This document shows, one piece after another, positions 15,919-51,265 of a stretch of DNA of 64,000 nucleotides; position 1 is the stretch's first letter; each line of letters opens with the position of its first letter. Made by a program: the position numbers and the translations under genes. Origin of the DNA: Onthophagus taurus (Eukaryota > Arthropoda > Insecta > Coleoptera > Scarabaeidae); NCBI RefSeq assembly GCF_036711975.1, contig NC_091976.1, positions 32,922,001-32,986,000 on the forward strand, read 5' to 3'. A model generated the notes under the pieces. The model was not told where the DNA came from. It searched no databases and was given only the letters and a program-made list of their open reading frames with translations.

Positions 15919-18900
15919 ATGGGACTAGTGAGAACCCCAGCAGGACTAGTGCCAGCAGGAAACCAACTACCACCAGAAGAAGTTAACGGTTCAAATATTT
16001 TATTACAAGATAATAACGGTGAGTAAAAAAAAGTTTTAATTAATTTTTACTTTAATTAATTAAATTAACAAGTTTATTTAAGATAACAATAAATAAGTCA
16101 TCTTAATTTATTTGTTGTTAACAATATTATCGGGCTCGAACTCGGTGTAATTAGATTTAATATTATTTTTTCTTTTTTTGGCTCTCTTTATCTCGATTAT
16201 TATTGTAACGCTAATTAGATGAGTAATGAGGGAAAGGAGGGTTGTAAAAGTGAAATGTACACCGCGGAAAATGTGCGTAAAGTGAGAGGAGGTTGATGTG
16301 AAAACGGCGGTTCCGGCGCGCGTAGTAAAATCAATTTTGCAAAAGCACCGACGACCTTGGGACGAACGGATAAAGCCCAACTGTTGCGCCGCACCTCGCG
16401 TTCAGAACCGCACGAAACGTTTTGTTGTTATTCGCTTTCCGTTTTTGTTGCAACGCATTTCCAATTCTGCACAAAATCGATTCATCAACCCAAAATAATT
16501 CTTTTTTAATTTATTCCAACTCAAATATTGCATAATGATTTGGAAACGACTTATTATTATTAATAATAATAATAATACAGGTTAAAGACTTATAATTAAA
16601 ATGAGATCTTATGCTAAATAACTGATTAAATAGCTGATTTATTAACGTTCCAGAAATAAACATTTCCATAATATGTCGTTTAAAATTATCCCATATTTGT
16701 AATTTAAATAAGGACTTACACGCAAAGCAAATTTTCTAAAACACGCAAAATTATTTTTTTAATTTCAGTTGAAGTGTGGAAAGAAGCTTTACCATATCAA
16801 TTAGTAATCGGAATAATAATTTTCGTGATGGCTTTAGTTCTTTTCGCGGCTGTTAGTTATCAATGTGCCGCGACGTGGAGATGGATTTTAGATAGAACTT
16901 GTCGGGATCCTTTCGAAGGCGAAGATGGGCTCTCGTCGTCGAAACAACCCGCCATTCAAATCAGTCATTCTTTACCCGATTTGCAAACGGAACCATTAAA
17001 ACAAGAATACGTTCAAGATCATAAAGAAGCAGCAAAAAAGGTAAGTAATAAGAGAAAAACTTAAAATAAATAAAAACGCAATATAAAACCCTCTTCGCGA
17101 AACTTAATAAAACGATTTCGAAATTTTCGACGTCGACCTCTCGGTATTTGTAGCAATTTCAATACGGAATTTTTGCAATTCTTTTTCATAAACTACGAGA
17201 GCACCCTCAAATAATCTTTATAATACTTCTCATATTGAAACGAACGCTTCAATTGCGTGATATTACTTTTTTTCATTACGTTTAATTCAAATTATTAAGA
17301 ACGGAAATATTGAAAGTCAATAATCACTCTTAAAGAAAATATTAAATTTTATTTTTTATTTAATTAATTAAAATGATATATATTCAAGAAACGAAAATAG
17401 CAGCGAAACGAGAATAATAAGATTTTGACTTTAACGAAACGATAGGAAAAGGAAATTTTATTATTGGATGTTTCTTTTGGTGTTATCCGCATTATTTCTA
17501 CTTTTCGTGAGGATTAATCCAGCTCGGCTTATCTCCAAGACTTCATAATTACTTTTATTGATTATCTTCTTAATTGTATTGATGTTTCGTGGTCCTTTTT
17601 ACATTTATATTGTTTTCTTTTTTGTTCTTTGTAAGAAATTTCTTTGGATAATTAATTTAATCAAAGTTAATTTATTTAGGTTGGTACTATTGTTTATTGA
17701 AAGTAGAACTAAAACTAGAGCTAGAACTAAAAACATTCGGCTTTAGCCGTCTAAAGAGACGCACGGCTAAACACGAATGTTTCTAGTTCTAGGTCTAGTG
17801 TTAGTTTTCGTGTTGGAAGTAAAACTAGAACTAACACTAGACCTAGAAACTAGAAATTTTCAGGTTTAGCCGTGCTTCTTGAGAACCAAATCTTTCTAGT
17901 TCTAGGTCTAGTGTTAGTTCTAGTTTTAATTGTGATTCAGTGTTAGGTTGTTATATATTTTTATTGAACTAACACTAGATCTAGAACTAGAAACATTCGG
18001 ATTTAGCCGCACGTCTCTTAAGACGGCTAAAGCCGAATGATTTTAGTTCTAGGTCTAGTGTTAGTTCTAGTTTTAATTGTGATTTAGTGTTAGGTTGTTA
18101 TATATTTTTATTGAACTAACACTAGATCTAGAACTAGAAGCATTCGGGTTTAGCCGTCTTAAGAGACATACAGCAAAACCCGAATGTTTTTAGTTCTAAG
18201 TTTAGTGTTAGTTCTAGTTTTAATTGTGATTCAATGCTAGGTTGTTATATATTTTTATTGAACTAACACTATTTCTAGGTTTAGTATTAGTTCTAGTTAT
18301 AGTGTAGTACTATCATTAGAACTAACACTAGATTTAGAACCAAAATCATTCGGGTTTAGCCATCTTAAGAGACGCACGGCTAAATCCGAATGTTTCTAGT
18401 TCTAAGCCTAGTGTTAGTTCTAGTTTTAGTTTACTAGAAATATACAATAATTGAAACCATATCAATTATTCCCAATTTTTTAATTCTTTCATGTTTATGG
18501 ACAACATCCCATTTCGAGATATAAAAGGGATGAAATTATTCCCCATATTTCTCAAAAATTAAATAATAAAAATAGGAAAAAGTAAAAACTTTTTGTGAGA
18601 AATCTAATAAGTTAATTTCCAAGAAATTTAAAGGATTTTATTTAAGGAAAGAAAACCAAAACTCATTCCTATTTCCAACATATTTTAAATTTATCCATCA
18701 ATTTGTAATTATTTCAAGTACTGAAGATGAAACATTTGTTTCGAAACATGTTTACTTTTTGAAATAAATTAAGTATTTTTAATAATTCTCACAAAAAGTT
18801 TTTACTTTTTCCTATTTTTATTATCCCCGAGATGTTTCTTGTCGATTTACACACACCAACAACCTTTTTTCTCAATTTTGAAACACTTTCAAAACCCAGT

Positions 18901-21900
18901 AAAATTCTTTTTTCAATTTAATCATCCTATTTAAGTGTCATAGAGATATTTTAAGCCATATAAAACCATTTTGAACCAAAATCATCAATAAATCCCATTT
19001 TTTGAATTCTTTCAAGTTTATGGACAACATTGTATTTAATTATTTTAACTTATTTTTTCTTTGTTAAGTATTCCCGAAATGTTTCTTCCAAATTAGAACC
19101 ATTTTGACACACACCTTTTCTATTTTTTGACGACTTTGAAACACTTTCTAAAGCCATACAAATATTTTTTCAATTTAATCATCTTACTTAAGTATTACCC
19201 CAATTATAGTGTGAAGAAACCCCAATTATAACGTGAAGGGATGTTAGGAGAGGTCAGTTTTCTTTTGAACCCCCCAATTGTAGCGTAAAGGAATGTTAGG
19301 ATAGATCAGTTTTGTTTCCACCTGTCAATCATCCTGGAAAAAATGTTGGGTAAGGTTAGTTTTGTTTACGGCTGTCAATTACATCGGAAAAGAATGTTTG
19401 GTAATAAGTCAAGGAATATACACAACAAACTACATATATTTGTTAGTTCGGCAGTAATTATTGCGAATAAATAATAACTGTCTGTATGGAAAGGACATTT
19501 TGAGCAAAATTTATTTCTATTTATTATCGTATCATATCTTAAGAAGAACAACGAATGGGATATTGTATTATAAGAATTTTTTACCATTACGCCTCTTACT
19601 TCTATTCTATTCTAGGTCCAGTGTTAGTTTTCGTGTTGGAACTAAAACTAGATCTAACACTAGATATATCTAGATAGCCGTATGTCTCTTAAAACGGTTA
19701 AACCCCAATGTTTCTAGAATTAGAAACGGGTTTAGTGTTAGTTCTAGTTATAGTGTAGTACTCTCATTAAAACTAACTCTAGACCTAAAACTAGAAGCAT
19801 TCGGGTTTAGACATCTTGAGAGACGCACGGCTAAATCCGAATGTTTCTAGTTTTAGGGACATATCAACAACCATTTTCTACTTTTTTGGCAATTTTGAAA
19901 CACTTTCAAAGCCCATTAAAGTTGTTTCTTCAATTTAATCATCCTATTTAAGTGTCATAGAAATATTTTAAGCCATATACAGGGTGTATCTGAATGACTG
20001 CAACAAACTTCAAGGGGTGATTCTTTAGTGAATTTTAAGGGTACTTTGATATATGAACCATGGGCGACTTCGGCTCCCCTAAGGAGCTACACCCCTCCAA
20101 AAATGGCGGAAAATTTTGGTTTAATTTTTTTTTCTCGAAAACCATAAACGCTAGGAAAATGAAAAATTTGGGGAATATGTTTAACTCATGATAAGGCACG
20201 TTTTGACCCTATTTGTACTTTCAACCTATCCTTCTAAACTACTAAACGTAACCACCCCCGTTCAATTTATGCTTAGATTTTTTTTATGAAGATGATAAAT
20301 ACATTGGAAAAGTTTCAGTTAGATAGATAAAACTATTCTAAAACTTTTTTGTCTCTCTGATGTTCTTCTAAAAATTAATAATTTCTGAGAAAAAAAATAA
20401 TTAAGCAAACACTAACTGTTAAGCTGTAGGGTTGTTAATCGAAAGTTGGAATGAATTTTTAAAGAAAAAATCTTAGCAGGCTTAGCAATCTTTGTCAGAA
20501 ATATTTTTGACTTTTAATTTCAGTGGTTTTCTTATTTTATTATTGTTTTATTTAAAATTTTGAAACGTCGAGTGAACGAGCGTAAATGCGATAGAACTTT
20601 ATTCAAAAATTAATTTGAAAAACAATAATAATAGTAAGAAAAACTGACATTTAAACGTCAAAAATATTTCTGGCAAAGATTGCAAAGCCTACTAAGATTT
20701 TTTCATTCAAAAATCATTCCAACTTTTGATCGACAACCCCGTGTTTGCTTTACTATTTTTTTTCTCAAAAATTAGTCGTTTTTGGTAAAATTTCAGAGAA
20801 ACAAAAAAGTTTTAGAATACTTTCATCTATCTATGTAAAATTTTTCTAATGTATTTATCATCAGCATAACAAAAATTTTAGCAAAAATGCAAAGGGGGTG
20901 GTTACGTTTAGTAGTTTAGAAGGGTAGGATGAAAGTACAAATAGGGTCAAAACATGCCCTCTTATGAGTTAAACATATTCCCCAAATTTTATTTTCCTAG
21001 CGTTTATGGTTTTTGAGAAAAAAAAATTAAACCAAAATTTTCTGCCATTTTTGGAGGGGTGTAGCTCCTTAGGGGAGCCGAAGTGACCCATGGTTCATAT
21101 ATTAAAGTACCCTTAAAATTCACTAAAGAATCACCCCTTGAAGTTTGTTGCAGTCATTCAGATACACCCTGTATACTATATAGTTCGTTTTTTTTTTATA
21201 ATACTTGTCAATGTAAATTTTTTAGGGTTTCTGTTGGTATTATCTAAGACCCTTATAAAATTTATGTTGTTTTTCTGATTTTTAGTAACATTTTCACTAA
21301 CTAAATAGTTAAGGTTAAAATACTAATAAATTTTTAGATAAATACGTTTAACGAAGTAAAGTTAATTAGAATTAAATAGAACAAAACACCTTTTCTAGGT
21401 AAATAAATGGCAAATAAACACCCCACAACATTTTTTAAGCACCTTTTTTTTTGAATAACGAAAGCTCAAACGTCAGTATGACATATTTATTTCAAAACAT
21501 GATAAAACAAAACTCCCTGTTAATTTTGCCAACTTTACAACAATTTGGCAGGTATTATAGAAAAAAAATGAACTATACAATCGTTTTAAAAGGAACAAAA
21601 AGTTTTTGTTAATTATTCAATTACTATTAGAAATATACCCAACAAACTACACATATTTGTTAGTCTCCCTTTGTTAGTTAATGTCTCTTTTAGTTTCGGA
21701 GGTAGCTTATGTGGACAAAGAATTTGGGAAACCATGTACAGGGTGGGCAAATTTGGGTGTTATTATAGGCTATCTCAGAAACTGTAAGAGATACGAAAAA
21801 AGTAGGTGCCATGTCCCGGTCTCTTTTTTCGAGACTAATCCAATCCCGCAAACACCAAACCTCTATCTTCTTTTGTTTTTAAGTTATAGCCAAAAAGTCA

Positions 21901-32000: not shown

Positions 32001-35000
32001 ATAAAAACCCGGATTTTCTGATTTTCGGGCATCAATACTGAAAATTGGAGGGGATATTGGCAATACTATTGACCATGTAGGGTTGGAGCCAATATTTCCA
32101 TCAATACTCAGTGTATGAGTAATAAACTCAACACTCAAAATTAAATACCTACTTTTATTTAATTGTAACAATAACAAAACATGTGTATCAACACACTGAA
32201 AAACATATGTTATTTTAACCCTTTAACGGGCAAATTATTTTTTCGTTTTTAGAAACGATTTAGTTGTGGTAATGCAGCTATTTGACCTTATTGATAACTA
32301 GTCTCTATAGAAGCCACTAACCATTAAAGGGTTAACCGAGATGATTTGAAAACAAGTTTAATTTTTATTTTCTAAATTACACTCAGTTTAGTTCAAGCCG
32401 CGCGCCCGTTCAACACGATGATGATACTGTTGGTTCATCCTGTTCATCCAGCTTTGCTGATAGTTGCTGAGGACATTATAACAGAAAACTTCAAGTCTTC
32501 AAAATTTCTTCCTGTGGCCAAATACCTCAGGGTTAAGGCTAATCTTTCCCTAACACTTGTACTTTCTCTTATATTGCTATTCTATCTTCTTCAAAAATGG
32601 TTCAACCATCTGTAACAGTTGATTAAAGGAACTTTCATCCATTCAAACGTAGTTCTTGAAATCATCAACATTGCAGAGGTTGATTTCTGTCAACAGTACT
32701 AGATAAGAATATTCATCTCTCTTCTTCAACCATTCTTTCATTCCGTATTTGCGTTTCACTCGAAGAGTAGTTCCAAGCGCCAAAATAAAGCTACGCAAGC
32801 TTTTGTACGTTTTTATCCTTATTTGGAAAGGAAAAACTAGCAAATAACCCAGTAAAACTACGTAGATTCACCCTGTTCGTGGTAAAAAGGTAACTTATTG
32901 ACAAAAGTATTGACAATAATATTGATCGTGTAAGGTTGGGAGCAAATTTTTTGCTTCCATTTCTTGGTTTGCTCTCCGTCAAATTTTTCCTCTACCATCC
33001 GATCCGAAAATATACTTACTTTCGTCAGTAAACAGAACTGTTTTCCAAAATTCAAAGTCACTTGCAGGATAACTTATAGCAAATTCAATCCTTTTCTGTC
33101 TGTTTTGTTGAGAAATCAAAGGTTTTTTTCATGGAATTCGTCCATTAAATCTATTAAATCTTAACACTCTACATACAGTTTCTGAATGGTCGATTTTGTA
33201 GGTAGCTTGTTGAATTTCTTCTGCCAGTTGAGGAGCACTTGTTCTGGCATTTTCTTTCATCCGTTTTAAAATTGTACTAATAGTGCTAGACATAGACTGA
33301 TGTTGCTCGACTTTTGCCAACAGTTCACTTTCACCATATGATTTCCGCTCACTTCTTAACTTTATTATTATGGTGAACTTCCTGTGTAAGCTGTTTTGTA
33401 TCAAATGCGTAACTGTATGTTGACTTTTGTGAGGGTTATCTATCAGTATTAAATTTTTTGCTCCGTCTATGGAGCATTTGATTTAGTTTTATTCTATGTG
33501 GTATGCTCATCAATAAGCACAAGTAGTTTTAAATGTAATACAAAGATTAATTTAATAGTCTTTATTTCTATATCGCTATTTTAGGTGGTGTATGTAGACT
33601 TTTGTGACTAACTGTAAGTACGAAGGCTTTCACGGCCGGTGTTAATTAAACTAAAACTAGAACTAACACTATAACTAGAATTAACATTAGATCTAGAACT
33701 AGAAACTTTCGGATTTAGCCGTTTTGAGAGACGTGCGGCTAATCCCGAATGTTTCTAGATCTAGGTCTAGTGTTAGTTCTAGTTTTAATTGTTATTCAGG
33801 TATATTTTTATTGAACGAAAAGCAGAACAAGACTAGACCACAACTAGACAACACTAGACCGAGAACTAGAAACATTCGGGTTTAGCCGCACGTCTCTCAA
33901 GACGGCTAAACCCGGATGATTCTAGTTCTAGGTCTTGTGTTAGTTATAGTGATAGCGCTAGTGTAAAACTAGAACTAACTCTAGAACTAGAAACATTCGG
34001 GTTTAGCCGCACGTCTCTTAAGACGGCTAAACCCGAATGATTCTAGTTCTAGGTCTTGTGTTAGTTCTAAAGCAAAACTAGAATTAATACTAGAACTAGA
34101 AACATTCGGATTTAGCCGCACGTCTCTTAAGACGGCTAAACCCGAATGATTCTACTTCTAGGTCTTGTGTTAGTTCTAGTGATAGTGCTAGTATTCGTTC
34201 TATACTCTGTTTTTAAACCAGGAGGAGTAAACGCGAAAGTCAAATTTACACTAGGAAAAATCACCAGAAAATATCACTAGATATTTTGGCGGTAAATTTA
34301 AATTAATAATAATTATTATTTATTTATTTACTTATTATTGTATTTATTTTCGTTTGTTATCGTCAACACTAAACATACAAATTATCATTGAAGTTATGAG
34401 TGTATTTATTTCAAAATATAATAAAGAAGGGTTTAAGAACACAAAATTTACAATAATGACACGAAACTGTCGAATTGTCAATAACCTAACCTTCAAAATC
34501 AAAATTCAAAATTGCCTGTGTGTGAACCTTCCTCGCATTCAACCAATCACGTGCAAGGTCAATCTGGTGACAAATTTAAAATACTCCTCCTGGTTTAAAA
34601 ACAGAGTATAATTGCCAAAGAAAACTTCAAGGTATAATTAATGTTTGTAAACAAAACTAACCTTACCTAACATTCCTTCACGCTATAATTGACATTACAA
34701 AAGAAAACTTTACGCTATAATTGCCATTACAAATTGCCAAAGAATACTTCATGGTATAATTAATGTTTGTAAACAAAACTAACCTTACCGAACATTCCTT
34801 CACGCTATAATTGACATTACAAAAGAAAACTTCACGCTATAATTGCCATTACTAATTTCCAAAGAAAACTTCATGGTATAATTAATGTTTGTAAACAAAA
34901 CTAACCTTACCTAACATTCAGCGTCTGAAGACACAGGGCTAAACCCGAAACTTAAAAATATACAACTTAGCGCTGAATAACAATTAAAACTAGAACTAAC

Positions 35001-38000
35001 ACTCGCACTAGAATTATACTCTGTTTTTAAACCAGGAGGAGTAAACGCGAAAGTCAGATTTACACTGGGAAAAATCACCAGAAAATATCACTAGATATTT
35101 TGGCGGTAAATTTAAATTAATAATTATTATTTATTTATTTACTTATTATTGTATTTATTTTCGTTTGTTATCGTCAACACTATACATACAAATTAACATT
35201 GAAGTTATGAGTGTATTTATTTCAAAATATATTAAAAAAGGGTTTAAGAACACAAAATATACACTGACCGGCAAAAAAAACCGGCCACCAAAATGTAGCC
35301 ACAATTTCAAAGCTGGCTTACTCGCGAACCACTCATTCGATTTTGATGATTCTTTTTTTGATCGAAACGTTGATTCTTCTGTAATAATCCTGCGATAGAA
35401 ATTTTTATTCGGATATTAATTTGAGCATATACGGGGTGCAAGAATGAGAAAACCTTTTTTTCCCGAAATTTGTAATACCCTATGGGGTGCAGCTGCTACA
35501 GCAAAGGGTGTTAACTGGAATCAAATGGTAGCCCAATCTATTCTGAGCATTTTATTTTTTTATTCACTCTATTATCTCTGTTACTAATGAAGATGCAGTA
35601 TTTTCAAGTGATCGCCTGTGAAAACAAGACGAGTGACAATAGTAGCTGATGACCGTTTTATTGTTCTAAGCAATCGTAGAACGACAGCTGTAGAAGCTCG
35701 GTGTCGTCTTCAAATGGTGCATGTCGTTGATGTCAGTGAGCAATTGCGGTAAACTCTTCTTCAAAAGCAATTTGTAACTTTTGAAGGTTGTCCGGTAGGA
35801 CAGGACGACGACGAATGCGTCTCTCAAGTTGGTCCCAAAGATATTCGATAGGGTTAAGGTCCGGGCTGCACGCGAGCCACTCTATCCGTTCAATACCCTA
35901 CTTCATCAAGGTATTCGTTAACCACACGTGCTACGTGCGGTCGCGCATTGTCATGCATTAGCATGAATCCGTCACCAATAAAATGGGAATAGAACCTCCA
36001 TGGAAAGGTACTCTTTCCGAAATGGTGTAGGTCGCAAACCTTTCATTACGACGTCTCCACAGTCACTCTCGACCATCAGGTGACCGGAGTTGTTCCATTC
36101 CCTAATTCATACGTATATACGCGCCCAAATTGAAGACGTGCTCGCCGATGTCTCTGGAGCAGCCGAGGTCTTTTGGCAGGTCTTCTTGCAGTCAGATCAC
36201 TTTTATCAAGTCTTCGATGAATAGTTCTTTCACTTACGCCAACCCCACGCACCATCTGAAGAGGGTGCCGAGTTTCTACAGCTGTCGTTCTAAAATTCCT
36301 CAGAGTGTTTAGAACAATAAATCGGTCATCAACTGCTGTTGTCACTCGTCTTCTAGCGAAACCTTGCCGCCTAGTGAAATTTCCTGTTTCCACATATTGG
36401 TTCCAGGCATCCTGAACTGTTGTTCAGGGTACACCCAACGTATGGGCAACGTATTGCTGACTTTTGCCATCCTCAATTAAAGTAACAATAGCCGCAACAT
36501 CAGTTACTGACAACGGGATTGCTATTATGTTAAAAGACTGTAAAAATCTTTAACAACTGTCAATCTACTATTCGAAACAAATGACATACGCTACCTAGCG
36601 CGCCACCTTAGATTTTTTTATGCTTGCTTGTCTTGTTTTTATAGGCGTTCGCTTTAAAACACTGCATCTTCGTTAGTAATAGAGATAATAGAGTGAATAA
36701 AAAAACAAGATGTTCAGAAAAGATTGGGCTACCGTGTGATTCCAGTTAACACTATCTGCTGTAGCAGTTGCACCCCACAGGGTATTACAAATTTCGAGAA
36801 ACAAAAGTTTTTCTCATTCTTGCAACCCGTATATGCTCAAATTAAAACCTAAATGAAAATTTCTATCGCAGGATTATTACCGAAGAATCAACCTTTCGAT
36901 CAAAGAAACAATCATCAAAATCGAGTGCGCGGTTCGCGAGAAAGCCAGCTTTGAAGTTTTGGCTAATTTATAGTGGCCGGTTTTTTTTGCCGGTCAGTTT
37001 ACAATAATGACACGAAACTGTCGAATTATCAATTACCTAAACTTCAAATTCAAAATCAAAATTGCCTGTGTGTGAACCTTCCTCGCATTCAACCAATCAC
37101 GTGCAAGGTCAATCTGGTGACAAATTTAAAATACTCCTCCTGGTTTAAAAACAGAGTATAGTTCTAATTTAATTAATTAAATAATTTTTAACTGATGTTT
37201 AGGTTTATATGCTTCATCTGAAAACATAAAAGTAGCCTCAGAGGCGAGTTTATGCTACGTAGACATCGATAAATGCAAAGTACAACTTCCGGAAGAAATG
37301 CCGGCGTTTCCCAATCTTGACTCATTTTCGGATGAAATTAATTGTACTTTAGATAAATACGGAGTTCATACACCTAACATTGAAAATACACGCAATAATC
37401 AAGTATTATAATCATATTTATTGTTAATTTTAAAGTTTTAACTCATTTATTGTTTAGGATATTATGTCACGGAGTTGCACACTCCCTGGGCGACCACAAA
37501 ACCGGCGTAAATTATCAATTCACGATACTTTAGATACTGATAGGCCTCCATCTCCACCTGGTTCAGCACGATCGGAAGCTTTACAAAGAATAGCCGATAT
37601 TGTACGAAGAACCGGTGTGGCTTTAGATCAAAACGATGCTCCTCAACAACCGACGGATTCTTACATGGAAGATTTAAGGTTTAATAATTCAATTCGTGAA
37701 ATTTTTTTGAATCGTTTCGTTCACATTTTTCAATCGTACGATAATTTCGTAATTTTTCCCAATCAAAGTCGTGAGGATTGGCTTAATAATCGCGATACGA
37801 TGCAGAATTTCGATAAGGCGTCGTTTTTATCCGATCAACCCGATCAACATCGATTATTTTTATGGCGCTTTTTGGAGTCGCAAATGTTTACGACGTTCGT
37901 TGATAATAAAATTTTATCGCAATGGGGCGAAATCGACAATAATTTGCAAATTTTCGATACTAGAATAAAAATTTTAAAGGAAAGGTACGGTGGAGAACAT

Positions 38001-41000
38001 TTTTTGACGCGATCTACATACGAACCGTGCACGAGCGCGCATGATACCCAAAAATTATTAGATCGTAGAATGACGAATCCCGATTTCGAATCGCCGTATC
38101 CTAAAGAAATTATGAACCATCCAAGTTCGATATCGCGCACTTTTCCTTTATTAGACAAAGAAATTTTGAATAAAACCCCAATCGTTAATAAGGGAAGTAT
38201 ACCGAGGGCGAATGCTTTAAAGAAAACGTCTTTATTTTCGTTTAATTCGCGCACAATTAATTTAAACATTGAGAAATGCGAGAAACAAGGGATTAATCAA
38301 TCGGATATGTCGCCCGCTTTACTTGCGCAAACTAATTGGAGTTTTGTTGAGAAATTATTAAAAGATTGTAAGGTTAAAACGAAAAGGATGGTTTTGGCGA
38401 AATTGGGAGCTGAAGGAGTTACGTTATCTAGTACTAATTGTATGGATAGTTCTGGGTCGGTTGAGGAGAATATTTTAGTTGCTTCATTGTGCGATTTTTT
38501 GGAAAGGGTGTGGTCGCATGGGGTGCAAAGGAAACGAGGAAAATCTGCGTTATGGTCCCATTTGCTTATTTATCAAGAGTATCATCAACCAATTAAAAAA
38601 TTGGATAATCAACATTTATCACCAGGTTAGAAATAAATTCTATAATAAAGTTTATTTTATTAATAAATTTATTTTTTAGCTGATATTTCTAGGTTAGCTT
38701 TAGGAATGGAAAATTGGTCAAGTAGTAGTAGCACAGAAAATAAAAACATGAAATGTGAATTACCACCACTTCCAGAATCTCTTTTATTCGATATCACGTA
38801 AGATTATCAAATAAATCAATAAATATTAATAATGAGATAATTTTATGATACAGGAACGTTCAAATGATGTCAGATGTAAAAAGTGGTATTGGAATGGCTA
38901 GAACTTGGGTTCGGCTTGTTTTGGAAAAGAAACAACTTTCAAAACATTTCCGAATGTTACTTTCGGACCAAAACATCTTAAAAACGATTTATAAACGAGC
39001 GGCTTTTCTACGATGCGAAGAGGAAAAAGAACAGTTTTTATATCACCTTTTAAGTTTAAATACTGTTGATTATTTTTGTTTTACTGGCACATACCACACC
39101 ACTGGTAATTAAATTTGTGTATTTATTGCGGTGACCAAAGTGTAATGATATAGTGTTAGTTCTCGTCTTAGTTTAATAACAACATAAGAATAACAACTAA
39201 AACTAGTACTATCACTATAACTAACACTAGAACTGACACTAGACTTATACATTTAGGTTTAGGTGTGTTTAAAGAATATACAACTAAATCCGAATGCTTC
39301 TAGTTCTAGGGTTAGTTCAATAAAAATACACAACCTCGCGCACTGAATCACAATTAAAACTAGAACTAACCCTACACGTAGAACTAGAAAGTTTCGAGTT
39401 TAGCCGTGCGTCTGATTAGATTTTGGAACTTTTCGCTTTATTTCTAAAAAATGTTAACCGTTAGAAGAAAATTTTGTTATAAATTATTCTTTATTAATGT
39501 AATATCAACAATTTTAATGCAAAACATTTTCTTCTATCGATTATAGTCTTTGGGTAATGATCAATTTTCATAATATGAGTCATATATTTTGACATTTTGA
39601 AGATTTTCGCCTTATTTTTAAAAAATGTTAACCGCTAGAAGAAAATGTTGTTATAAATTATTCTTTATTAATTTAAAATCAACAATTTTCATGAAAAACA
39701 TTTTCTTCTATCGATTATAATCTTTGAGTAATGATCAATTTTCATAATATGAGTCATATATTTTAACATTTTGACGATTTTCGGCTTATTTCTAAAAAAT
39801 GTTAACCGCTAGAAGAAAATTTTGTTATAAATTATTCTTTATTAATGTAATATCAACAATTTTCGTGCAAAACATTTTCTTCTATCGATTATAATCTTTG
39901 AGTAATGATCAATTTTTATAATATGAGTCATATATTTTGACATTTTGACGATTTTCGGCTTATTTCTAAAAAATGTTAACATCTAGCAGAAAATTTTGTT
40001 ATAAATTATTCTTTATTAATTTAAAATCAACAATTTTCATGCAAAACATTTTCTTCTATCGATTATAATCTTTGAGTAATGATCAATTTTCATAATATGA
40101 GTCATATATTTTGACATTTTGAACATTTCCGCTTTATTTCTAAAAAATGTTAACCGCTAGAAGAAAATTTTGTTATAAATTATTCTTTATTAATGTAATA
40201 TCAACAAATTTCATGCAAAACATTTTCTTCTATCGATTATAATCTTTGAGTAATGATCAATTTTCATAATATGAGTCACATATTTTGACATTTTGAAGAT
40301 TTTCGCTTTATTTCTAAAAACTGTCAATAGTTAAGAGAAAACTTTGTTATAAATTAATCGTTATTAATTTAAAATCAACAATTTTCATGCAAAACATTTT
40401 CTTCTATCGATTATAATCTTTGAGTAATGATCAATTTTCATAATATGAGTCACATATTTTGACATTTTGAACATTTCCGCTTTATTTCTAAAAAATGTTA
40501 ACCGCTAGAAGAAAATTTTGTTATAAATTATTCTTTATTAATTTAAAATCAACAATTTTCATGCAAAACATTTTCTTCTATCGATTATAGTCTTTGAGTA
40601 ATGATCAATTTTCATAATATGAGTCATATATTTTGACATTTTGAAGATTTTCGTTTTATTTCTAAAAAATGTCAACAGTTAGGAGAAAACTTTGTTATAA
40701 ATTATTCTTTATTAATTTAAAATCAACAATTTTCATGCAAAACATTTTCTTCTATCGATTATAATCTTTGAGTAATGATCAATTTTCATAATATGAGTCA
40801 TATATTTTGACATTTTGAACATTTCCGCTTTATTTCTAAAAAATGTTAACCGCTAGAAGAAAATTTTGTTATAAATTATTCTTTATTAATGTAATATCAA
40901 CAAATTTCATGCAAAACATTTTCTTCTATCGATTATAATCTTTGAGTAATGATCAATTTTCATAATATGAGTCACATATTTTGACATTTTGAAGATTTTC

Positions 41001-44000
41001 GCTTTATTTCTAAAAACTGTCAATAGTTAAGAGAAAACTTTGTTATAAATTAATCGTTATTAATTTAAAATCAACAATTTTCATGCAAAACATTTTCTTC
41101 TATCGATTATAATCTTTGAGTAATGATCAATTTTCATAATATGAGTCACATATTTTGACATTTTGAACATTTCCGCTTTATTTCTAAAAAATGTTAACCG
41201 CTAGAAGAAAATTTTGTTATAAATTATTCTTTATTAATGTAATATCAACAAATTTCATGCAAAACATTTTCTTCTATCGATTATAATCTTTGAGTAATGA
41301 TCAATTTTCATAATATGAGTCACATATTTTGACATTTTGAACATTTCCGCTTTATTTCTAAAAAATGTTAACCGCTAGAAGAAAATTTTGTTATAAATTA
41401 TTCTTTATTAATGTAATATCAACAAATTTCATGCAAAACATTTTCTTCTATCGATTATAATCTTTGAGTAATGAGCAATTTTCATAATATGAGTCATATA
41501 TTTTGACATTTTGAAGATTTTCTCCTTATTTTTAAAAAATGTTAACCGCTAGAAGCACATTTTATTATAAATTATTCTTTATTAATTTAGTATCAACGAT
41601 TTTCATGCAAAACATTTTCTTATATCGATTATAATCTTTGAGTAATGATCAATTTTCATAATATGAGTCATATATTTTGACATTTTGAACATTTCCGCTT
41701 TATTTCTAAAAAATGTTAACCGCTAGAAGAAATTTTTTTATAAATTATTCTTTATTAATGTAATATCAACAAATTTCATGCAAAACATTTTCTTCTATCG
41801 ATTATAATCTTTGAGTAATGATCAATTTTCATGAGTCATATATTTTGACATTTTGAAGATTTTCGCCTTATTTCTAGAAAATGTCAACAGTTAAGAGAAA
41901 ACTTTGTTATAAATTAATCTTTATTAATTTAAAATCAACAATTTTCATGCAAAACATTTTCTTCTATCGATTATAGTCTTTGAGTAATGATCAATTTTCA
42001 TAATATGAGTCATATATTTTGACATTTTAAAGATTTTCTCCTTATTTTTAAAAAATGTTAACCGCTAGAAGAAAATTTTGTTATAAGTTATTCTTTATTA
42101 ATTCAATATCAACAATTTTCATGCAAAACATTTTCTTCTATCAATTATAATCTTTGAGTAATTATCAATTTTCATAATATGAGTCATATATTTTGACATT
42201 TTAAAGATTTTCTCCTTATTTTTAAAAAATGTTAACCGCTAGAAGAAAATTTTGTTATAAATTATTCTTTATTAATTCAATATCAACAATTTTCATGCAA
42301 AACATTTTCTTCTATCGATTATAATCTTTGAGTAATGATCAATTTTTATAATATGAGTCATATATTTTGACATTTTGACGATTTTCGGCTTATTTCTAAA
42401 AAATGTTAACCGCTAGAAGAAAATTTTGTTATAAATTATTCTTTATTAATGTAATATCAACAATTTTCATGCAAAACATTTTCTTCTATCGATTGTAGTC
42501 TTTGAGTAATGATCAATTTTCATAATATGAGTCCTATATTTTGACATTTTGAAGATTTTCTCCTTATTTTTAAAAAGTGTTAACCGCTAGAAGAAAACTT
42601 TGTTATAAATTATTCTTTATTAATTTAATATCAACAATTTTTATGCAAAACATTTTCTTCTATCCATTATAATCTTTGAGTAATGATCAATTTCTATAAT
42701 ATGAATCATATATTATGACATTTGGAGATTTTCGCTTTATTTCTTAAAAATGTTAACAGTTAGGAGAAAACTTTGTCATAAATTATTTTTTATTAATTTA
42801 AAATCAACAATTTTAATGAAAACATTTTCTTTTATCGATTATAATCTTTGAGTAATGATCAATTTTCGTAATATGAATCATATATTTTGACAATATGAAG
42901 ATTAACTCCGAAACTAATCGAGATGTCTCAAAATCTAATGTTTCAAAATTCGAATGTTTCTAAATCTTTAACAGTTTCGAGTTTAACCACACGTCTTATA
43001 AGATGGCTAAACATATTATTATATTTATTTCTTTAAATCATTGCTTTTGATTAATTAATTTAATAATTTTTAGTGATAACTTATCGTATAGTAATTGTGC
43101 CAACAAAAAGAGGAACAATAACATCCGCAAACGTATGGTTCGTAGCTTCCGGTACACTACTTGAAACCGGAAGATTATCCGTGCCAAGAAACGCGCTTAA
43201 TTTCGAAATTAAACACAAAAATCTCGGAGTTTTAACCACACTACGAATTGGCCATGATAATTCCGGGTTATCGGCGAAATGGATGATCGATTACGTTTTG
43301 GTTCGCAATGAAATTACTGGCCATACTTATCAGTAAGTTAAAATCAAATTTAATAAATTAATTTAATAATTTTTTTTTAATTAAGTTTCCCGTGCGGTCG
43401 ATGGTTAGGAAGAGGGGTGGATGATGGCTCAACTGAACGTTTACTCGTTGGTACATTAATAAAACAACAAACCGATGATGAATCTGGATCGTCTTCTAAC
43501 CCTGGAAGTTTAAAAAAGCGAAACACAATTCGTAGCCAATCACCTGGCCCACCAAGAAATGAGTTTAAACCATCGCAAATCCAACACATGCTTGGTGATT
43601 GCGTTAATAATATAGTAAAATGGCATTATAGGCGTAGTTCAGAACGAAATACTACACTTACAGCTTTGTTATGTGGTGATACCGGATTGGTTAAGTGTTT
43701 AGAGTTGGTGTTTTTGCTTGGGTTTCGATCGGCTAGATTATTCGTTTTTAATCATTATCTTTGGGATTATTTTGGTATTAATAAATTAGGTACTAGTTTA
43801 TTATTAAGTATTAATGTTGATGAAATTTTTAGTAAGAGTTAAAGAACAATTTGAATATGATTTAATGGAAGAAACCTCGGGAAATCGTTCAATTTCCGTT
43901 GAAAGAAACCATCAAGAAACCGTTGCAGTTTGGCGATGTTATTGTCATTTAGTCGATGAAATCCAATCGGGGAGTAAAGCGTTAGGGAAAGATGGAAAAT

Positions 44001-44278: not shown

Positions 44279-44712
44279 TTAACGAGTCATTTGTTCAAGA
44301 CAAATTATTAGTACAAATAAGAATTTTTCCTTTTTTTTTTTGATTTGAAGAATTAGATGATAATAAGTATCTAATAGAAAATTGTGTGTTATAACTTATA
44401 ACTAATTAAGATGAGTTAAAATGAGTTGAAATTGAAGATGGTAGAATCTAAAAGGAGTGTTATATCATAGTTTAATAGAAATGTGAACAATTTAACACTG
44501 AATAATAACTAAAATTGAAGCTAATAGAACTAACATTAAACATAGAATTAGAATCATTTAGGTTTAGATGGATGTGTCTTAAGATGGGTAAACTCTAATG
44601 TTTCTAGTTCTAGATCTAAGTTTGTTTTAGTGTTGGAACTAAAACTGGAACTAATTCTAGATTGAGTTCAATAAAAATATAAAAAACCCCGGTATTGTGT
44701 AACAAACTTGTA
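44279..44712. other. DENND5 3' flank with palindromic-repeat copy
   Basis: AT-rich 3' UTR-like sequence to about 44490. Then a diverged copy of the CTAG-rich repeat follows (AACATTAAACATAGAATTAG; TTTCTAGTTCTAGATCTAAG; GTTGGAACTAAAACTGG) up to the TA where fold-back element 3 begins. Confidence 0.6.
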
Positions 44713-46797
44713 CAGGGTGTCCCAATTTCGATGTCCGCATAGGCTATCTCCGAAACTAAAAGAGATAGAAAAAAAGTAGCTTACATGTCATGATCTCGTT
44801 TTTCGAGAAAATGCTAATGCCGAAAACTCCGAACAGCTATCGTCTTTTGTTTTCGCCCTATCGGCAAAAACTGAAAATTTTACAAAAACGACAATCGCGA
44901 ATATCTTACTTATTATCAAAGATGGAGTATTATAAATAAAACATTATATGGGCAACTTTTTACGAAGAATTCAGTGGCGTAGGTAGAATTTTTTTCCCAT
45001 CATTTATTTTCGAGATTTTAGACGTAACTTTATTTTTTTAAATGGAAACCATAGTTGGCTATGACTTAAAACAATTTGTTATTTTCTTCTGATAACAAAT
45101 ATATATAGTTTGTGGGGTATATTTCTTATGGTTATTGAATAATTAACAAAAATTCATTTTGTTCTGTCTAAAACTAATGTATGTATTTAAAAGTTAATGT
45201 TGCTATGGTGATAACCATACATACTATGATGGAACATAATGTATCAAATAATTACCAAGGTTTGTATTTAAAAATTTGATAACAACTCTGGCATTATGTG
45301 CTGGTACGAAGCACCAGCATGTTAAGTGTCAAAGTATAACAAAACTGAATAAAACTTTACAATGAATTTCGAAAATTATGAAAAATGTAACATGATGGAA
45401 TGCTATATGTTATCAGATAAGAATGCGATGTTAGCCGCGGAATTTTATTTCACAAGATATCCAGAAAGAAAACAACCGCACGAAAAAACCTTCAGCTGAT
45501 TAGCAGAAAATTTAATAGATATTTGGTCCTTTCCCAAACCACATACAAAAACATACCAAAATGACCTGCAAGAGTCCTAAATAATCTGCTGTTTGTTCAA
45601 AATGTTATCTGGACCGATGAAGTCTCTGAGTGTTCAAAGAAGATTGGGGTTTAATGTATGGTGCCCCCTTTTAGATAATAGAATTTTGGCATATAGTATC
45701 TACCATAAAAACTTAAACTCAGGGAAATACCTCAATATATTAAGGCAGCACATTGAGCCTTTGGTCGACAATTTGCCACTAAATATGTCTCAAATGATAT
45801 ATTTTCAATATGACGGAGCACCAGCACATAATGCCAGAGTTGTTAGTGAATTTTTAAATACTGCCATTGTTGTGACAGCCTACCCGCAAACTACGTCACA
45901 CCATTTTCCACGTCCAGCTGTTGTTATGGTCTATGCGTTTGCTGTGAGAGGTTATATCCTAGACGTATTCATATTAGTTTTGAAGTTTTATGTTTTTAGA
46001 CGTATTAATGTCCTTCATATAACCTCTAAAAACATAGACAGTTATCTACCAGGCGTGGCAAATAGTGTGACGTAGAGTGCGGGCAACCAACCCGTAGTCG
46101 ACTACAAAAATAGAATGGATGTAGCAGTCCTGTTAGATTCTACTGTCCTTGCTACAAACTTTGGCAATAATTGGAAACAATGCTTTCCCTCATGGTATGG
46201 TTATCACCATAACAACATTAAGTTTTAAATACACACAATAGTTTTAGAAAGAACAAAAAAAATTGATACATTATATTCCATCATAGTATGTATGGTTATC
46301 ACCATAGCAACATTAACTTTTAAATACATACATTAGATTTAGAGGGAACAAAATGAATTTTTGTTAATTATTCAATAACTATAAGAAATATACCCTACAA
46401 ACTATATATATTTGTTATCAGAAGAAAATAACAAATTATTTTAAGTCATAGCCAACTATGGTTTCCATTTAAAAAAATAAAGTTATGTCTAAAATCTCGA
46501 AAATAAAAGATGGGAAAAAAATTCTACCTACGCCACTGAATTCTTCGTAAAAAGTTGCCCATATAATGTTTTATTTATAATACTCCATCTTTGATAATAA
46601 GTGAGATATTCGCGATTGTCGTTTTTGCAAAATTTTCAGTTTTTGCCGATAGGGCGAAAACAAAAGACGATAGCTGTTCGGAGTTTTCGGAATTAGCATT
46701 TTCTCGAAAAACGAGATCATGACATGTAAGCTACTTTTTTTCTATCTCTTTTAGTTTCGGAGATAGCCTATGCGGACATCGAAATTGGGACACCCTG
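44713..46797. mobile_element. Fold-back element 3, ~2.09 kb, mariner-type transposase remnant inside
   Basis: The left end CAGGGTGTCCCAATTTCGAT and the right end ATCGAAATTGGGACACCCTG are inverse complements, flanked by TA. Arms of about 600 bp contain GGCTATCTCCGAAACTAAAA / TTTTAGTTTCGGAGATAGCC. Between them, on the plus strand, 45362-45500 (MNFENYEKCNMMECYMLSDK, then AAEFYFTRYPERKQPHEKTF) looks like the DUF4817-type helix-turn-helix. 45650-45870 (NVWCPLLDNRILAY, NMSQMIYFQYDGAPAHNARV) looks like the catalytic part of the same mariner-like transposase. Stops and a nested MITE break it. Confidence 0.88.
45873..46110. mobile_element. MITE nested in fold-back element 3 (sister of 22829-23080)
   Basis: Same inverted ends (CCCGCAAACTACGTCACACC; GTGTGACGTAGAGTGCGGGC) and the same interior (AGGTTATATCCTAGACGTAT; CATATAACCTCTAAAAACAT) as the copy inside fold-back element 2. 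It interrupts the transposase frame just after NARVVSEFLNT. Confidence 0.85.
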
Positions 46798-46904
46798 TAC
46801 TAAAACTAGAACTAACATTAGACCTAGAACTAGAAAGGTTCCAAATGTTTCTAGGTCTAGTGTTAGTTCTAGTTTTAATTGTGATTCAGTGGAAGGTTGT
46901 TATA
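46798..46904. repeat. Left part of a CTAG-rich repeat split by fold-back element 4
   Basis: ACTAAAACTAGAACTAACAT, TAGACCTAGAACTAGAAAGG, GTTTCTAGGTCTAGTGTTAG, then TTGTGATTCAGTGGAAGGTT and GTTATA. The repeat resumes after the element at 47934 with TATTTTTATTAAACTAACAC, exactly as in uninterrupted copies near 17945. Confidence 0.85.
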
Positions 46905-47933
46905 CAGGGTGTCTCACCTAACTGGTTCGTTAGAACTTTTTCATTTTCTACTATTCGTAGAGATTTGAAATTTTGGTAGCATGGGTTGTTCATTCGGAAC
47001 TTTCGATCTAAAATACTTTCAAGATTGCCGCCACTTCCGGTCTACCGGAAGTAGACCATAACTTCGCTATTTTAAATGGAATGCTATAGTTTTTATTACA
47101 CAGTTTAATTGTACATAAAAAAGCAGGTTGACTTTGATAAAAGTTATTGGTACCTAGCGTTTTTTGTTTTCGAGTTAGTTTGGTTTTAAACTTTTTTTGG
47201 TAAATTTCAACATGCTCTTTAAAACTCCATATCTCAGCCAAAGTTCATTCAAAAAAGATCTACTTTGGCACGATTACTATTCAGATGTTGTCAAATAGAT
47301 TGCCATTTGTTGTATCGGAGTATCTTATACAGGATGGTCAAAAATTGAATTACTGTTTCTCCATATTTAATGGCGAGAAAGTCGAAAATTTTAAATGGAA
47401 CGCCCCATATTTTTTTAGGCTATCAGGAAGAGAATCTAATTCTCTACAAATTACCTATACACATTCCCATACCTATTTATTGTAGTTTGCCTCATATTGC
47501 GATATTTATTAAAACATGCACGAAATGCAGGAAACCGTTTGTATTTTTATTAGAAGGCCATAACATTTTGACAGTTTTTTCTTTAATTTATTTCTATTAT
47601 TATTTGTACTATTAACTACGATTGATAATCTATTTGACATTTGACTATTACTACGTATGACAATCTATTTAATTAAAAACACTAGGTACCAATAACTTTT
47701 ATGAAAGTCAACATATTTTTTTACGTACAATTAAAAGGTGCAATAAAAACTATAGCATTCCATTTAAAATAACGAAGTTATGGTCTACTTCCGGTAGACC
47801 GGAAGTGACAGCCATCTTGAAAATATTTTAGATCGAAAGTTCCGACTGAACAACAAATACTACCAAAATTTCAAAACTGTACGAATACTGGAACCTAAAA
47901 AGTTCTAACGAACCAGTTACGTGAGACACACTG
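46905..47933. mobile_element. Fold-back element 4, ~1.03 kb
   Basis: The left end CAGGGTGTCTCACCTAACTG and the right end CAGTTACGTGAGACACACTG are inverse complements. The match extends through AACTTTCGATCTAAAATA and GGTCTACCGGAAGTAGACCA, the latter itself palindromic. Arms of roughly 330 bp; no transposase. Confidence 0.88.
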
Positions 47934-48080
47934 TATATTTTTATTAAACTAACACTAGATCTAGAACTAAAAGGAGAACTAACACTAGAACTAGAAATAT
48001 TTGGGTTTACTTGTGCGTCTGAAGACGTTTAAACCCGAATGTTTCTAGTTCTAAATCTAGTATTAGTTCTACTTACAGTT
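47934..48080. repeat. Right part of the split CTAG-rich repeat plus one more unit
   Basis: TATTTTTATTAAACTAACAC, TAGATCTAGAACTAAAAGGA, GGGTTTACTTGTGCGTCTGA and GTTTCTAGTTCTAAATCTAG, ending directly against the exportin-5 exon fragment. Confidence 0.8.
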
Positions 48081-48249: not shown

Positions 48250-48965
48250 ATTTCAGGTAGATAGCTTTTTCCTAGGCAAACAGTAGTTCGTTACAATTTT
48301 ATCATTTAATGTCTAGGCAAATACTTTTGGACAAGATAAATCGTATCTGTCTAAGCTTGTTTTAGGCAAGTACTATTTTTTCGATACAACAATGCAATAT
48401 ATAGTAGAAACCACGAGAGCTGGCAGTGACAGATCGCTTAAAAATGGTATGAATCAAGATATGGAGGTACGACTTAGATTATTTCACCACATACATTTAA
48501 ATGTAGGTTATGTTAGTAACGGAGGTTATATGTCAAACATTGTCAAAGATATTATTTAATGATTTTCCTTTCAAAGGAAACATTTTCGGCTTGTGAAAAC
48601 ACAAACAGATTCATGACAACGCTGACAAGACGTTTCGATTTGAGGTTATAATTATAGAGTGACATCCCTTAGAAGAACAGACGTACTTTTTCGACGTGGC
48701 CATTTGAATTGTACAGCAGACATATTAAACTAATGCTATCTCTTTCTATCACACATTACTCTCTAGCGGTTTGTGAACTACGTATGGCATTTGTAAGAGC
48801 GGAAAACGATGATTTACTGCCAGCTCTCGTGGCGTCTACTATAGATAGTTCCTAGTCAAATACTGACTGCCTAGGCAAACAGTAGTTCGTTACAATTTTA
48901 TCATTTAATGTCTACGCAAATACTTTTGGACAAGTACCATTTTTTCGATACAACAATGCAATATA
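48250..48965. repeat. Direct duplication (~130 bp) surrounding a MITE
   Basis: CTAGGCAAACAGTAGTTCGT, TTTTATCATTTAATGTCTA and TTTTTTCGATACAACAATGC occur at about 48270-48400 and again at about 48870-48960. The right copy lacks an internal ~40 bp. Between them is the element at 48403-48841. It begins right after the exportin-5 exon fragment. Confidence 0.8.
48403..48841. mobile_element. MITE of ~440 bp
   Basis: Terminal inverted repeats AGTAGAAACCACGAGAGCTG..GCAGT and ACTGC..CAGCTCTCGTGGCGTCTACT. It has a TATA-like flank on each side. The interior has no coding potential. Confidence 0.82.
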
Positions 48966-49105
48966 GAATAGGTACCTGTTCACAATAAAATGAAGCAGTT
49001 CCTATCGTTATCAACCGAACTTTTCTTAAATTAAAGTCACTAATGAGTGTCAAACGAGTCAAATTATTTGCGTATCATTTTCAAAAAATGCATAACAGTT
49101 TCATA

Positions 49106-49525
49106 TATTTTTATTAAGTTTAATCTTTGATTATATATAATATGGATTGAGCCAACAAGCTGACATATAATGGGCGTGCGTTAATTTATAAGATAAAAAA
49201 CTATCAATTAGAAGTAACATTTATAATACTTACAGGTGATGTGAAACTGTATTATCGCGAACTTTGCACACGAAACAATACATTTTTAAACATAACGGTG
49301 TGACTGGCTGTGACACAACAAAACGATAAACGTCAAATGGAAGAGGTTTGACACTTTTGTGCGCATGCGCCCGTCTGTTTAGTACCGTTTTATGTCTATC
49401 TTTGTTACACTTTCACATTATCGCTTTCCATCTGCGTCTATTCACCTTGAGCCACATTTTTGTTAGTAGATATATTCAGTTAGCTCAATCCATATTATAT
49501 ATAATCAAAGAGTTTAATAAAAATA
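49106..49525. mobile_element. MITE of ~420 bp with ~45 bp inverted ends
   Basis: Left TATTTTTATTAAGTTTAATC, TTTGATTATATATAATATGG, ATTGAGC; right GCTCAAT, CCATATTATATATAATCAAA, TTTAATAAAAATA. The interior is non-coding (the short frame 49348-49536 is incidental). Confidence 0.85.
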
Positions 49526-49574
49526 CAAATAAATGATTTATTTCTTGAAGACTTAAATACTAAATAAAAAAATT

Positions 49575-50990
49575 TTACTTGTTTTGACATTTATTGCTGG
49601 AATTGCACATCATCATATTTTTGAAACAAATGTGGCGTTTTGACATCCCTTGCCCAGAAAACAGTGACTGTGAAGTGTAGGCCCAAGGTTTATATATAAA
49701 AGGTTGTCTAGGTTCGTACGCAACCATACTGCGCATTACGTCACATGTGGAAAATAATACCGCCAAGCAATTCAAATTAAACAAATGCATGGAGCACCAC
49801 ATGGCCATGAGGTTGCGTGCGCAATCCGTGATCGCTTACGTCACGAAACACTCCTGCTCTTGCCCCTCGCCCACAAACTAAAATCAAAGTATTGCAGCAT
49901 AGGAACTTAGACAACCTTTAATATATAAACCTTGGTGTAGGCCTCCCTTAAAGAAATAAAGCATTCCTGGGGTTGGGTTGGTTTAAAGAGCTATTTGCCT
50001 GAAAATATTTTAGCCATATGCTATTTACATAGGAAAGTAGAATTTAGACTGAAATTAATGGAATAAAACTATTTGCCTGCGACATAAGCACAATTCGCAC
50101 GATTCTTAATTTTCCTGCACGATTTTTATCAAGTCGATTACACCTTTCTCTATAAATCAAACCTGCATTAGAAAATAGTTTTTCTGAACAAACAGAGCTT
50201 TATGGTGTGATTAAGTATCATTTAGCAAGCTTACTTAAAATGCGAAATCCATCCTTATTGGTACTCAAAGCCCACCATTCATATGGATTTATACTTCTGT
50301 CAGCGTCGTAGATTCTTCAAAACATGCCTAAAATAATTTATAAGTTTCCGAATCGACATTCCCACTTTCATTGTCTAAACGAGGTCTTTTCGATGCCATT
50401 TCTGGATCTGAATCATCATTTTCGTCGTGAAAGAAGTCTAATTGTAAGAACTTTGAAAGTTCTAAAAGAAAGTTCTTGTAGCGAGGATCGAAATAAAAAT
50501 GTCGACAAGTAATATGTGCATCTTTCATTAGGTACATGATTAATGACACTGTTCTAGATATTACATCTGACATAGGTGCATGTGGAACTCGTTCTTTTTG
50601 TTATTTCTTCGAGAGCTTCAGAGCTTCATCAATTCACGCTCCTTGATTCTGAGATATACACTGAAATTGCTCTTTTTTGTTCAAGTAGACACTCCAGTAG
50701 GTAATATGTTGAGTTCCAGCGAGTTTAAATATCTTGAATCAGTTTATGTTTAGGCAGTCCGAGTTCAGATTGAGTACTTTCAAGTTTTGTATATCCCGTA
50801 TATCCTGTGATTGAAATGTGTCACAAAGTGACGGGCATTAGTCAGAGTTTCTGTTATTGGAGGACTATTTCTTAATGCATCATTTATCACCAACTGGAGA
50901 GTATGGATGAAGCAACGCTCTCAAGGAAGTATCATTATCGTGAACAATCGACATGATTCAATTAAGTTTTCTGATATCCAGTGTCCTGTG
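49575..50990 (-). pseudogene. Dead hAT-family transposase
   Basis: Minus-strand pieces in order: TRWNSTYYLLECLLEQKRAI at about 50730-50660; HITCRHFYFDPRYKNFLLEL near 50510-50440; then WWALSTNKDGFRILSKLAK and SSVCSEKLFSNAGLIY at about 50280-50150. These match the hAT hallmarks 'TRWNST', 'LDPR.K' and the C-terminal dimerisation block with 'W......L..LA......S....E..FS..G'. A dead tail extends to 49575. Several stops, frameshifts and a 251 bp MITE insertion. ZBED-like hAT subgroup is likely but unproven. Confidence 0.8.
49684..49934. mobile_element. MITE of 251 bp with 9-bp target duplication
   Basis: Ends CAAGGTTTATATATAAAAGG, TTGTCTA and TAGACAA, CCTTTAATATATAAACCTTG are inverse complements. 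The exact 9-mer GTGTAGGCC flanks both sides (49675-49683 and 49935-49943). A 9 bp duplication is typical of Mutator-like elements (hAT makes 8). The insertion interrupts the hAT remnant, so it is younger. Confidence 0.9.
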
Positions 50991-51265
50991 CAACTCAGGC
51001 TAAACCCAAATGTTTCTAGTTTTAAGTCTAGCGTTAGTTCTATTTTTAGATTGTGATTCAGTGCTAGGTTGTATATTTTTATTGAACTAACACTAGATCT
51101 AGAAGTAAAAGTAGAACTAACACTAGACCTTGAAACATTTGGGTTTAGCCACACGTCTCAAAAGACGGCTAAACTTGAATGTTTCTAGTTCTAGTAATAG
51201 TTCTAGTAACATTCGGGTTTAGCCATACGTTTTTTAACCCGTATGTTTCTAGTTCTAAATCTAAT
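50990..51265. repeat. CTAG-rich palindromic repeat, several units
   Basis: CAGGCTAAACCCAAATGTTT, CTAGCGTTAGTTCTATTTTT, ATTGTGATTCAGTGCTAGGT, ACTAACACTAGATCTAGAAG, GGGTTTAGCCACACGTCTCA and AGACGGCTAAACTTGAATG occur in sequence. Last unit ends near 51262. Confidence 0.85.

Follow-up and report, generated by a model that had tools for sequence, protein, structure and literature searches.

A dispersed near-palindromic CTAG satellite of Onthophagus taurus: centre symmetry, carriers and insertions

Scattered through a 64,000-nucleotide stretch of the Onthophagus taurus genome (C11:32,922,001-32,986,000, contig NC_091976.1; the window) are copies of a palindromic, CTAG-rich sequence, here called the CTAG repeat. 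It is probably a dispersed palindromic satellite, one that grows locally into arrays, rides as a passenger in composite elements, serves as an insertion target, meets other satellites at unique junctions and has an unstable centre. A satellite with carriers and guests is of an ordinary kind; the feature that deserves a specialist's attention is the link between the symmetry of the centre and the integrity of the copies. The analysis covered the window and 200 kb to its left (264 kb in all), together with searches of the whole genome (290.8 Mb, 33 contigs) and small fetched loci; genome-wide word counts were paired with reversed-pattern controls. In each junction search the best 40 candidates were scored, the query's own locus among them, and a satellite junction is called unique when it was unique among the matches listed. 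Contig ends were taken, as an assumption, to be near chromosome ends; C11 is 34.99 Mb long and the window's right end lies about 2 Mb short of the contig end.

Anatomy of the repeat and symmetry of its centre

The monomer is about 127 bp long and near-palindromic, with arms of CTAG hexamers (NNCTAG type) on either side of a 44-bp core (consensus ATTCGGGTTTAGCCGCACGTCTCTCAAGACGGCTAAACCCGAAT, drawn from 73 of the 89 local cores). Core length was exactly 44 bp in 86 of the 89, and orientation was unclear in 15. Monomers stand head to tail, mostly in one orientation and usually at a spacing of 119-127 bp, the longest run comprising 18 cores. The half-core 15-mer AACATTCGGGTTTAG has 5,477 exact matches in the genome (2,722 + 2,755; reversed control, 0) and the full core, ATTCGGGTTTAG-N(8-38)-CTAAACCCGAAT, is present at 2,741 sites (control, 0). 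The repeat combines the marks of satellite DNA, tandem head-to-tail monomers in high copy number at many places, with the long inverted arms of sub-repeats typical of fold-back sequences, here the CTAG hexamers that flank the core.

A second form of the core has a fully symmetric centre, GTGCGTCT-TC-AGACGCAC, whose left half gave 368 exact matches genome-wide (control, 0). The sample comprised 20 of the 100 copies listed, all on contig C1 between 0.88 and 12.9 Mb. The second half was whole in 5 of these; in 10 the second arm was present with the centre deleted or rearranged, and in 5 there was no second arm within 75 bp. Short fillers repeating nearby letters were seen by eye in some of the disrupted centres (L068, L071 and L077). 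The asymmetric centre, in contrast, was whole in 95 of 100 copies (some of the loci overlap; Fisher p=4e-11 against 5 of 20), and in 55 of 59 when local copies alone were counted. Taking arm identity as an indicator of age, we found 22 of 24 older asymmetric copies (identity at most 0.88) whole as against 4 of 13 younger symmetric ones (at least 0.91; p=2.4e-4).

Instability of perfect palindromes, relieved by asymmetry at the centre, is known from constructs. The pattern in these small samples suggests that here, too, palindromy probably makes the centre unstable, symmetric copies being mostly disrupted and asymmetric copies mostly whole. It is conceivable, though we put it forward only tentatively, that a symmetric palindrome of about 126 bp spread and broke repeatedly at its centre, with loss of an arm or joining to foreign DNA, that a form with 4 nt of asymmetry in the centre escaped this fate and became the abundant satellite, and that breaks of the symmetric form seed junctions between it and satellites or other repeats. 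Under such a history, the family would be a natural genome-wide experiment in palindrome stability.

Folded as single-stranded DNA, four units gave z-scores of -8.9 to -17.8, in agreement with the hairpin-forming character that an earlier, sequence-only reading of the window had ascribed to the repeat. Conversion between the two arms of a unit was considered and rejected: arms of the same unit show an identity of 0.670, arms of different units 0.665. Since a unit's own arms are no more similar than foreign arms, the palindromy looks inherited and not renewed within the unit. Compensated changes numbered 37 against a shuffle mean of 24.7, a count reached by 2 of 500 shuffles, with the relatedness of units uncontrolled.

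The 264 kb contain 276 half-units, 204 of them paired into cores and 72 unpaired. These form 53 or 54 clusters, the merging distance deciding, and cover 6.2% of the sequence. Exact half-cores reach 98 per Mb in this region versus a genome average of 18.8 per Mb (about fivefold); extrapolation from this single region, with its ratio of all to exact cores of 89:16, would give a genome total of about 15,000 cores. The best 114 of 362 array-like matches, a subset of the copies chosen by score, fall into 40 distinct 20-kb places, 33 of which lie less than 5 Mb from a contig end (p=6e-11 for an expected fraction of 0.32); when the same set was merged at 100 kb, 27 of 34 did so (p=2e-8). A genome-wide search for TTAGG or TCAGG telomere arrays returned two overlapping hits, inside C3 only, as compared with 10 for the reversed-pattern control; the telomeres are of another kind or are not assembled.

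That the unit is itself a miniature inverted-repeat transposable element (MITE) or fold-back element with a transposase partner of its own is very improbable. It is short, palindromic and present in thousands of copies, and the hexamer sub-repeats of its arms are as in fold-back elements. Its outer ends, however, are variable: the flanks of the 53 local clusters differ from copy to copy, and neither target duplication nor empty site was found among them. The empty-site search in the local sequence gave 53 spanning hits, most being either the locus of the query itself, matched across the gap, or further copies of that tandem or composite element, along with a few partial matches. None was judged a true empty site. 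The core had no match in viral contigs, the window none in Rfam at the gathering score, and a literature search with three 11-13-letter words of core and arm, judged by the titles returned, found no description of this repeat family.

Copies in the window, composite carriers and insertions

The sequence-only reading had placed copies of the repeat at 13 sites in the window, and all were found again; the one given as 54260 lies at 54397-54437, and that at 42950, missed by the BLAST scan, was read by eye. Its picture of arms and a palindromic core in every copy does not hold throughout: 15501-15538 is an arm only, the copies in 4630-4683, 34920-35016 and 54397-54437 have only one half of the core, and the 42950 copy is degenerate. 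The repeat does border, as described, the 519-bp-family array, the 169-bp satellite on its right, the 175-bp satellite on both sides, two MITEs and two fold-back elements. The features are as follows.

768..4811, + strand: part of element T, with 519-bp-family tandem body, CTAG piece and tail remnant (4775-4811)
4630..4774, unstranded: half-core, arm, long spacer and second arm, in this copy of element T
10404..15366, + strand: 169-bp satellite array; its CTAG junction is unique among the matches listed
15501..15538, unstranded: CTAG arm alone, close to where the 169-bp satellite ends on the right
17700..18431, unstranded: CTAG array of 5 paired cores and 1 truncated half
19605..19857, unstranded: CTAG array of 2 paired cores and 1 truncated half
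33649..34194, unstranded: CTAG array of 4 paired cores
34203..34607, + strand: MITE with ends ACTCTGTTTTTAAACC, CTAG on its left flank
34610..34919, + strand: 122-bp tandem array of the MITE composite
34920..35016, unstranded: CTAG half-core and arm within the MITE composite
35017..37157, + strand: second MITE copy in the same orientation, with a nested insertion
39151..39406, unstranded: CTAG units, the final half-core facing the 175-bp satellite
39430..42903, + strand: 174/175-bp satellite array with a CTAG half-core on each side; both junctions unique among the matches listed
42950..43016, unstranded: read by eye, a degenerate CTAG half-core plus core to the right of the 175-bp array
44525..44678, unstranded: CTAG units, piece 1 of an interrupted array
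44711..46799, unstranded: fold-back element with ends TACAGGGTGTCCCA, within the CTAG array
46799..46880, unstranded: CTAG unit, piece 2 of the interrupted array
46903..47935, unstranded: fold-back element in a CTAG spacer, with TA duplication
47947..48080, unstranded: CTAG unit, piece 3 of the interrupted array
50998..51278, unstranded: CTAG units, 2 paired cores and truncated halves
54397..54437, + strand: edge of the second T copy, with CTAG half-core plus arm
54397..55259, - strand: second, shorter partial copy of element T
63174..63361, unstranded: CTAG unit and 1 truncated half with symmetric-centre sequence

Proteins of the window have C2, dDENN and Exportin-5 domains, which point to eukaryotic DNA. 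Similar sequence, of type TTAATTAACACCGGCCGTGAAAGCCTTCGTACTTAC, adjoins three CTAG clusters and is possibly another carrier or target; it lies at 33610-33650 of the window and at about 130.95 and 163.5 kb of the 264-kb stretch (C11 near 32.853 and 32.8855 Mb).

Two families of composites contain the repeat. The junction of 122-bp array, half-core and arm was present in 40 of 40 scored candidates (best 40 of 882, self included), with at least 169 of 171 bases covered at an identity of at least 98%. In two copies that were read out, array and CTAG piece lie between MITE copies of the same orientation, the CTAG piece standing between the array and a MITE copy; the window copy is alike. At 98% identity, the middle part of 34203-37157 is found again in no fewer than 39 further places. 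This composite is concentrated near contig ends (28 of 40, p=1e-5). The ACTCTG-ended MITE pair at 34203-37157, flanking the 122-bp array and CTAG in the same orientation, looks like a composite with direct terminal repeats.

The second family is element T. The junction of 519-family body, half-core and arm was again found in 40 of 40 scored candidates (best 40 of 2,063, self included), with 89-94% identity in the 39 non-self ones. Eight T-junction loci were fetched; L056, L058, L059 and L062 extend far into a common tail, of which L057 and L061 share a short part, and three of the fetched loci reach a common end, ...TATAACGCGGTC. The only complete copy read, at C2:13.03 Mb, measures about 2.4 kb and has 37-bp terminal inverted repeats of 94.6% identity, the nearer end lying about 0.4 kb outside the CTAG piece. 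Exact 23-bp T ends number 100 genome-wide (control, 0). AATT stands outside both ends of the complete copy and to the right of two more T copies, and may belong to the ends. The number of CTAG units varies among T copies (L056 versus L059 and L061). In the window, position 768 is the start of homology to the second T copy and not a true element end.

T ends in its own inverted repeats beyond the CTAG sequence, and the CTAG piece is therefore internal to it; CTAG as the terminus of T was rejected on the location of the tail and of the 37-bp inverted ends farther out. This tells against the repeat as the terminal part of its carrier, as first proposed, and so does the 122-bp composite, which holds its piece internally. 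The accompanying derivation from Helentrons fails on T as well: Helentron/HINE elements have subterminal repeats without terminal inverted repeats, and the one complete T copy has terminal inverted repeats. Across the 264 kb, 42 of 108 cluster flanks group into 13 same-offset families, some being local tandem duplicates.

The T tail (L056, L058, L059, L062) contains the motif CTGAAGATGGCCAAGGGCCGAAAC or one near it, which resembles the core of the hammerhead ribozyme (CTGAAGA..GAAAC). A hammerhead in the tail was rejected: Rfam searched to E=1 gave 4 matches, all to microRNA families below the gathering score.

The repeat is also a target. When the flanks of the element at 46903-47935 are joined, the spacer GGTTGTTA/TATTTTTATT reappears, accompanied by a TA duplication. 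A ACAACCTAGCACTGAATC-type spacer is divided in the same manner (TA duplication) by a MITE at about C11:32.7818-32.7828 Mb. The clean insertions of transposable elements sit in the spacer, not in the core. The CTAG pieces at 44525-44678, 46799-46880 and 47947-48080 read best as one array cut by two later insertions, 44711-46799 and 46903-47935. MITE ends adjoin CTAG in 7 of 14 cases in the 264 kb, several of them within a composite and not independent events. Some elements bordering the repeat have jumped into it, and the idea of a landing site finds support in that TA-inserting elements have landed in the spacer in the clean cases. An open reading frame at 45593-46075, inside the 44711-46799 element, has a DGAPAH stretch like that of mariner-type transposases; it had no Pfam match at E 0.001.

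Relation to the satellites of about 170-180 bp

The CTAG repeat lies about 24 and 47 bp from the 175-bp satellite on its two sides, and 25 to 135 bp from the right side of the 169-bp satellite, depending on the placement of the last degenerate monomer. Among the matches listed, the left and the right 175-bp junctions and the 169-bp junction were each spanned by the query's own locus only; the same was true of a 179-bp junction at C11:32.8997 Mb, into which one neighbouring copy continues for about ten bases. The expectation that core and tandem repeats move together was borne out for the two composite families (40 of 40 each) and, among the matches listed, not for the satellites of about 170-180 bp.

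An improbable alternative makes arm and half-core the terminal part of a satellite-carrying, non-autonomous element, Helentron-like or fold-back, with intact cores as empty elements. Five flanks of the ~179-bp satellite type adjoin CTAG inside about 26 kb, half-cores move together with the 122-bp and 519-family arrays, and of the 26 arrays present in the 264 kb, 2 have facing half-cores around them, all of which speaks for it. Apart from the uniqueness of the satellite junctions and the different ends of T, however, a CTAG half was absent from all 14 edge stretches of other 175-bp-family arrays (the single hit was of 15 bp, E=0.91; two stretches, L041 and L053, may stop before the true array edge). 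Inward-facing halves were not enriched at array edges (p=0.45, 0.32 and 0.22 at 100, 250 and 500 bp), and truncated halves share no end point, the break points of 56 being scattered over core and arms; 16 of the 72 unpaired halves, whose hits stopped short of the core, were excluded from this count. On the evidence of sequence, the CTAG repeat does not appear to be the terminus of elements carrying the ~170-180-bp satellites.

On C16, a 110-bp direct duplication with 2 mismatches stands at either side of a 175-bp-family array, as if insertion of the array had produced a very long target duplication (L045 349-458 and L046 57-166, near 1.5007 and 1.5059 Mb). Of five further pairs of edge stretches compared, one, L051/L052, likewise scored high (94), with indels.

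For the 26 non-CTAG arrays of the 264 kb, all 52 edges were compared with a rotation null. A half lay less than 100 bp away from 8 of the 52 (null, 4.2; p=0.056), so that the enrichment at satellite edges predicted earlier is borderline, and less than 500 bp away from 14 (null, 8.3; p=0.036). These counts bear on another reading, which sees the core as a favoured site of landing or breakage, where the breaking palindrome captures satellites and other DNA. We consider this unlikely. The enclosed arrays (P=0.04), the TA insertions in the spacer and the many disrupted symmetric centres, some with fillers that repeat nearby sequence, are all in keeping with it; but the edge enrichment is weak, the clean insertions lie in the spacer instead of the core, and the local breaks spread across core and arms, with 19 of 56 at most 10 bp from the centre. 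On that count, clustering of breaks at the centre of the core was rejected for the local truncated halves.

According to the dispersed-satellite account, which we favour, the short head-to-tail arrays would have grown locally by unequal crossing-over or slippage. Dispersal would have been due at least in part to transport within non-autonomous composite DNA elements, T and the composite of MITE and 122-bp array, whose recurrent junctions suggest that they were copied around the genome, perhaps by a transposase acting in trans. Nearness to the ~170-180-bp satellites, by way of unique junctions, would reflect chance in a repeat-dense region or occasional insertion and not one CTAG-ended carrier.

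Several results count against this account. When at most 2 substitutions were allowed in the anchors, the asymmetric centre was whole in 75 of 89 copies. Asymmetric copies are nearly all in arrays, whose homogenisation may repair them and so confound the comparison; the 1 solitary local copy has lost its second arm. The symmetric-centre sample was drawn from a single contig. Chance nearness alone predicts neither the enrichment of halves less than 250 bp from array edges (12 of 52; null, 5.8; p=0.02) nor the 2 of 26 enclosed arrays, for which the null is 0.30 (P=0.04). T junctions are not concentrated less than 5 Mb from contig ends (15 of 37, three C15 rows dropped; p=0.19); lacking the repeat's own concentration there, T alone does not explain where the repeat is located. 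The dispersal route is evidenced only for copies within the two composites.

Known systems and significance

In its behaviour the CTAG repeat resembles satellites that are also present within MITEs or fold-back elements. In Xenopus, the MITE-associated satellites miDNA4 and Xstir are tandem repeats that occur both in separate arrays and inside a non-autonomous DNA element, and for miDNA4 the capture of a pre-existing repeat has been proposed (PMC12628747). The CTAG repeat is likewise found both in arrays and inside non-autonomous elements; compared by description, it differs in being a 127-bp near-palindrome present in at least two unrelated composites. Tetris and TIR-220 of Drosophila virilis similarly combine tandem repeats in a DNA element with satellite-like arrays, but TIR-220 is part of Tetris's long terminal inverted repeats, whereas the CTAG piece is internal to T (PMC4079207). 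The Cg_HINE Helentrons of oyster are, like T, non-autonomous, carry satellite-like repeats and have palindromes (PMC7492417). HINEs, however, combine subterminal repeats with a 3' palindrome and lack a target duplication, in contrast to the 37-bp terminal inverted repeats of T (PMC7492417). In Tribolium castaneum, monomers of TCsat23 occur in the inverted ends of the transposon Rehavkus-1_TC and elsewhere (PMC10218199); TCsat23 is set apart from CTAG, by description, as a 164-bp monomer in transposon termini (PMC10218199).

How satellites disperse, and to what extent transposons carry them, is an open question, and the CTAG case separates three situations that look alike at a single locus: transport within an element, insertion of an element into the repeat, and simple proximity. 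To our knowledge, palindrome decay and stabilisation have been studied mainly with constructs. If the effect of the centre holds, hundreds of natural copies would reveal how palindromes decay and become stabilised.

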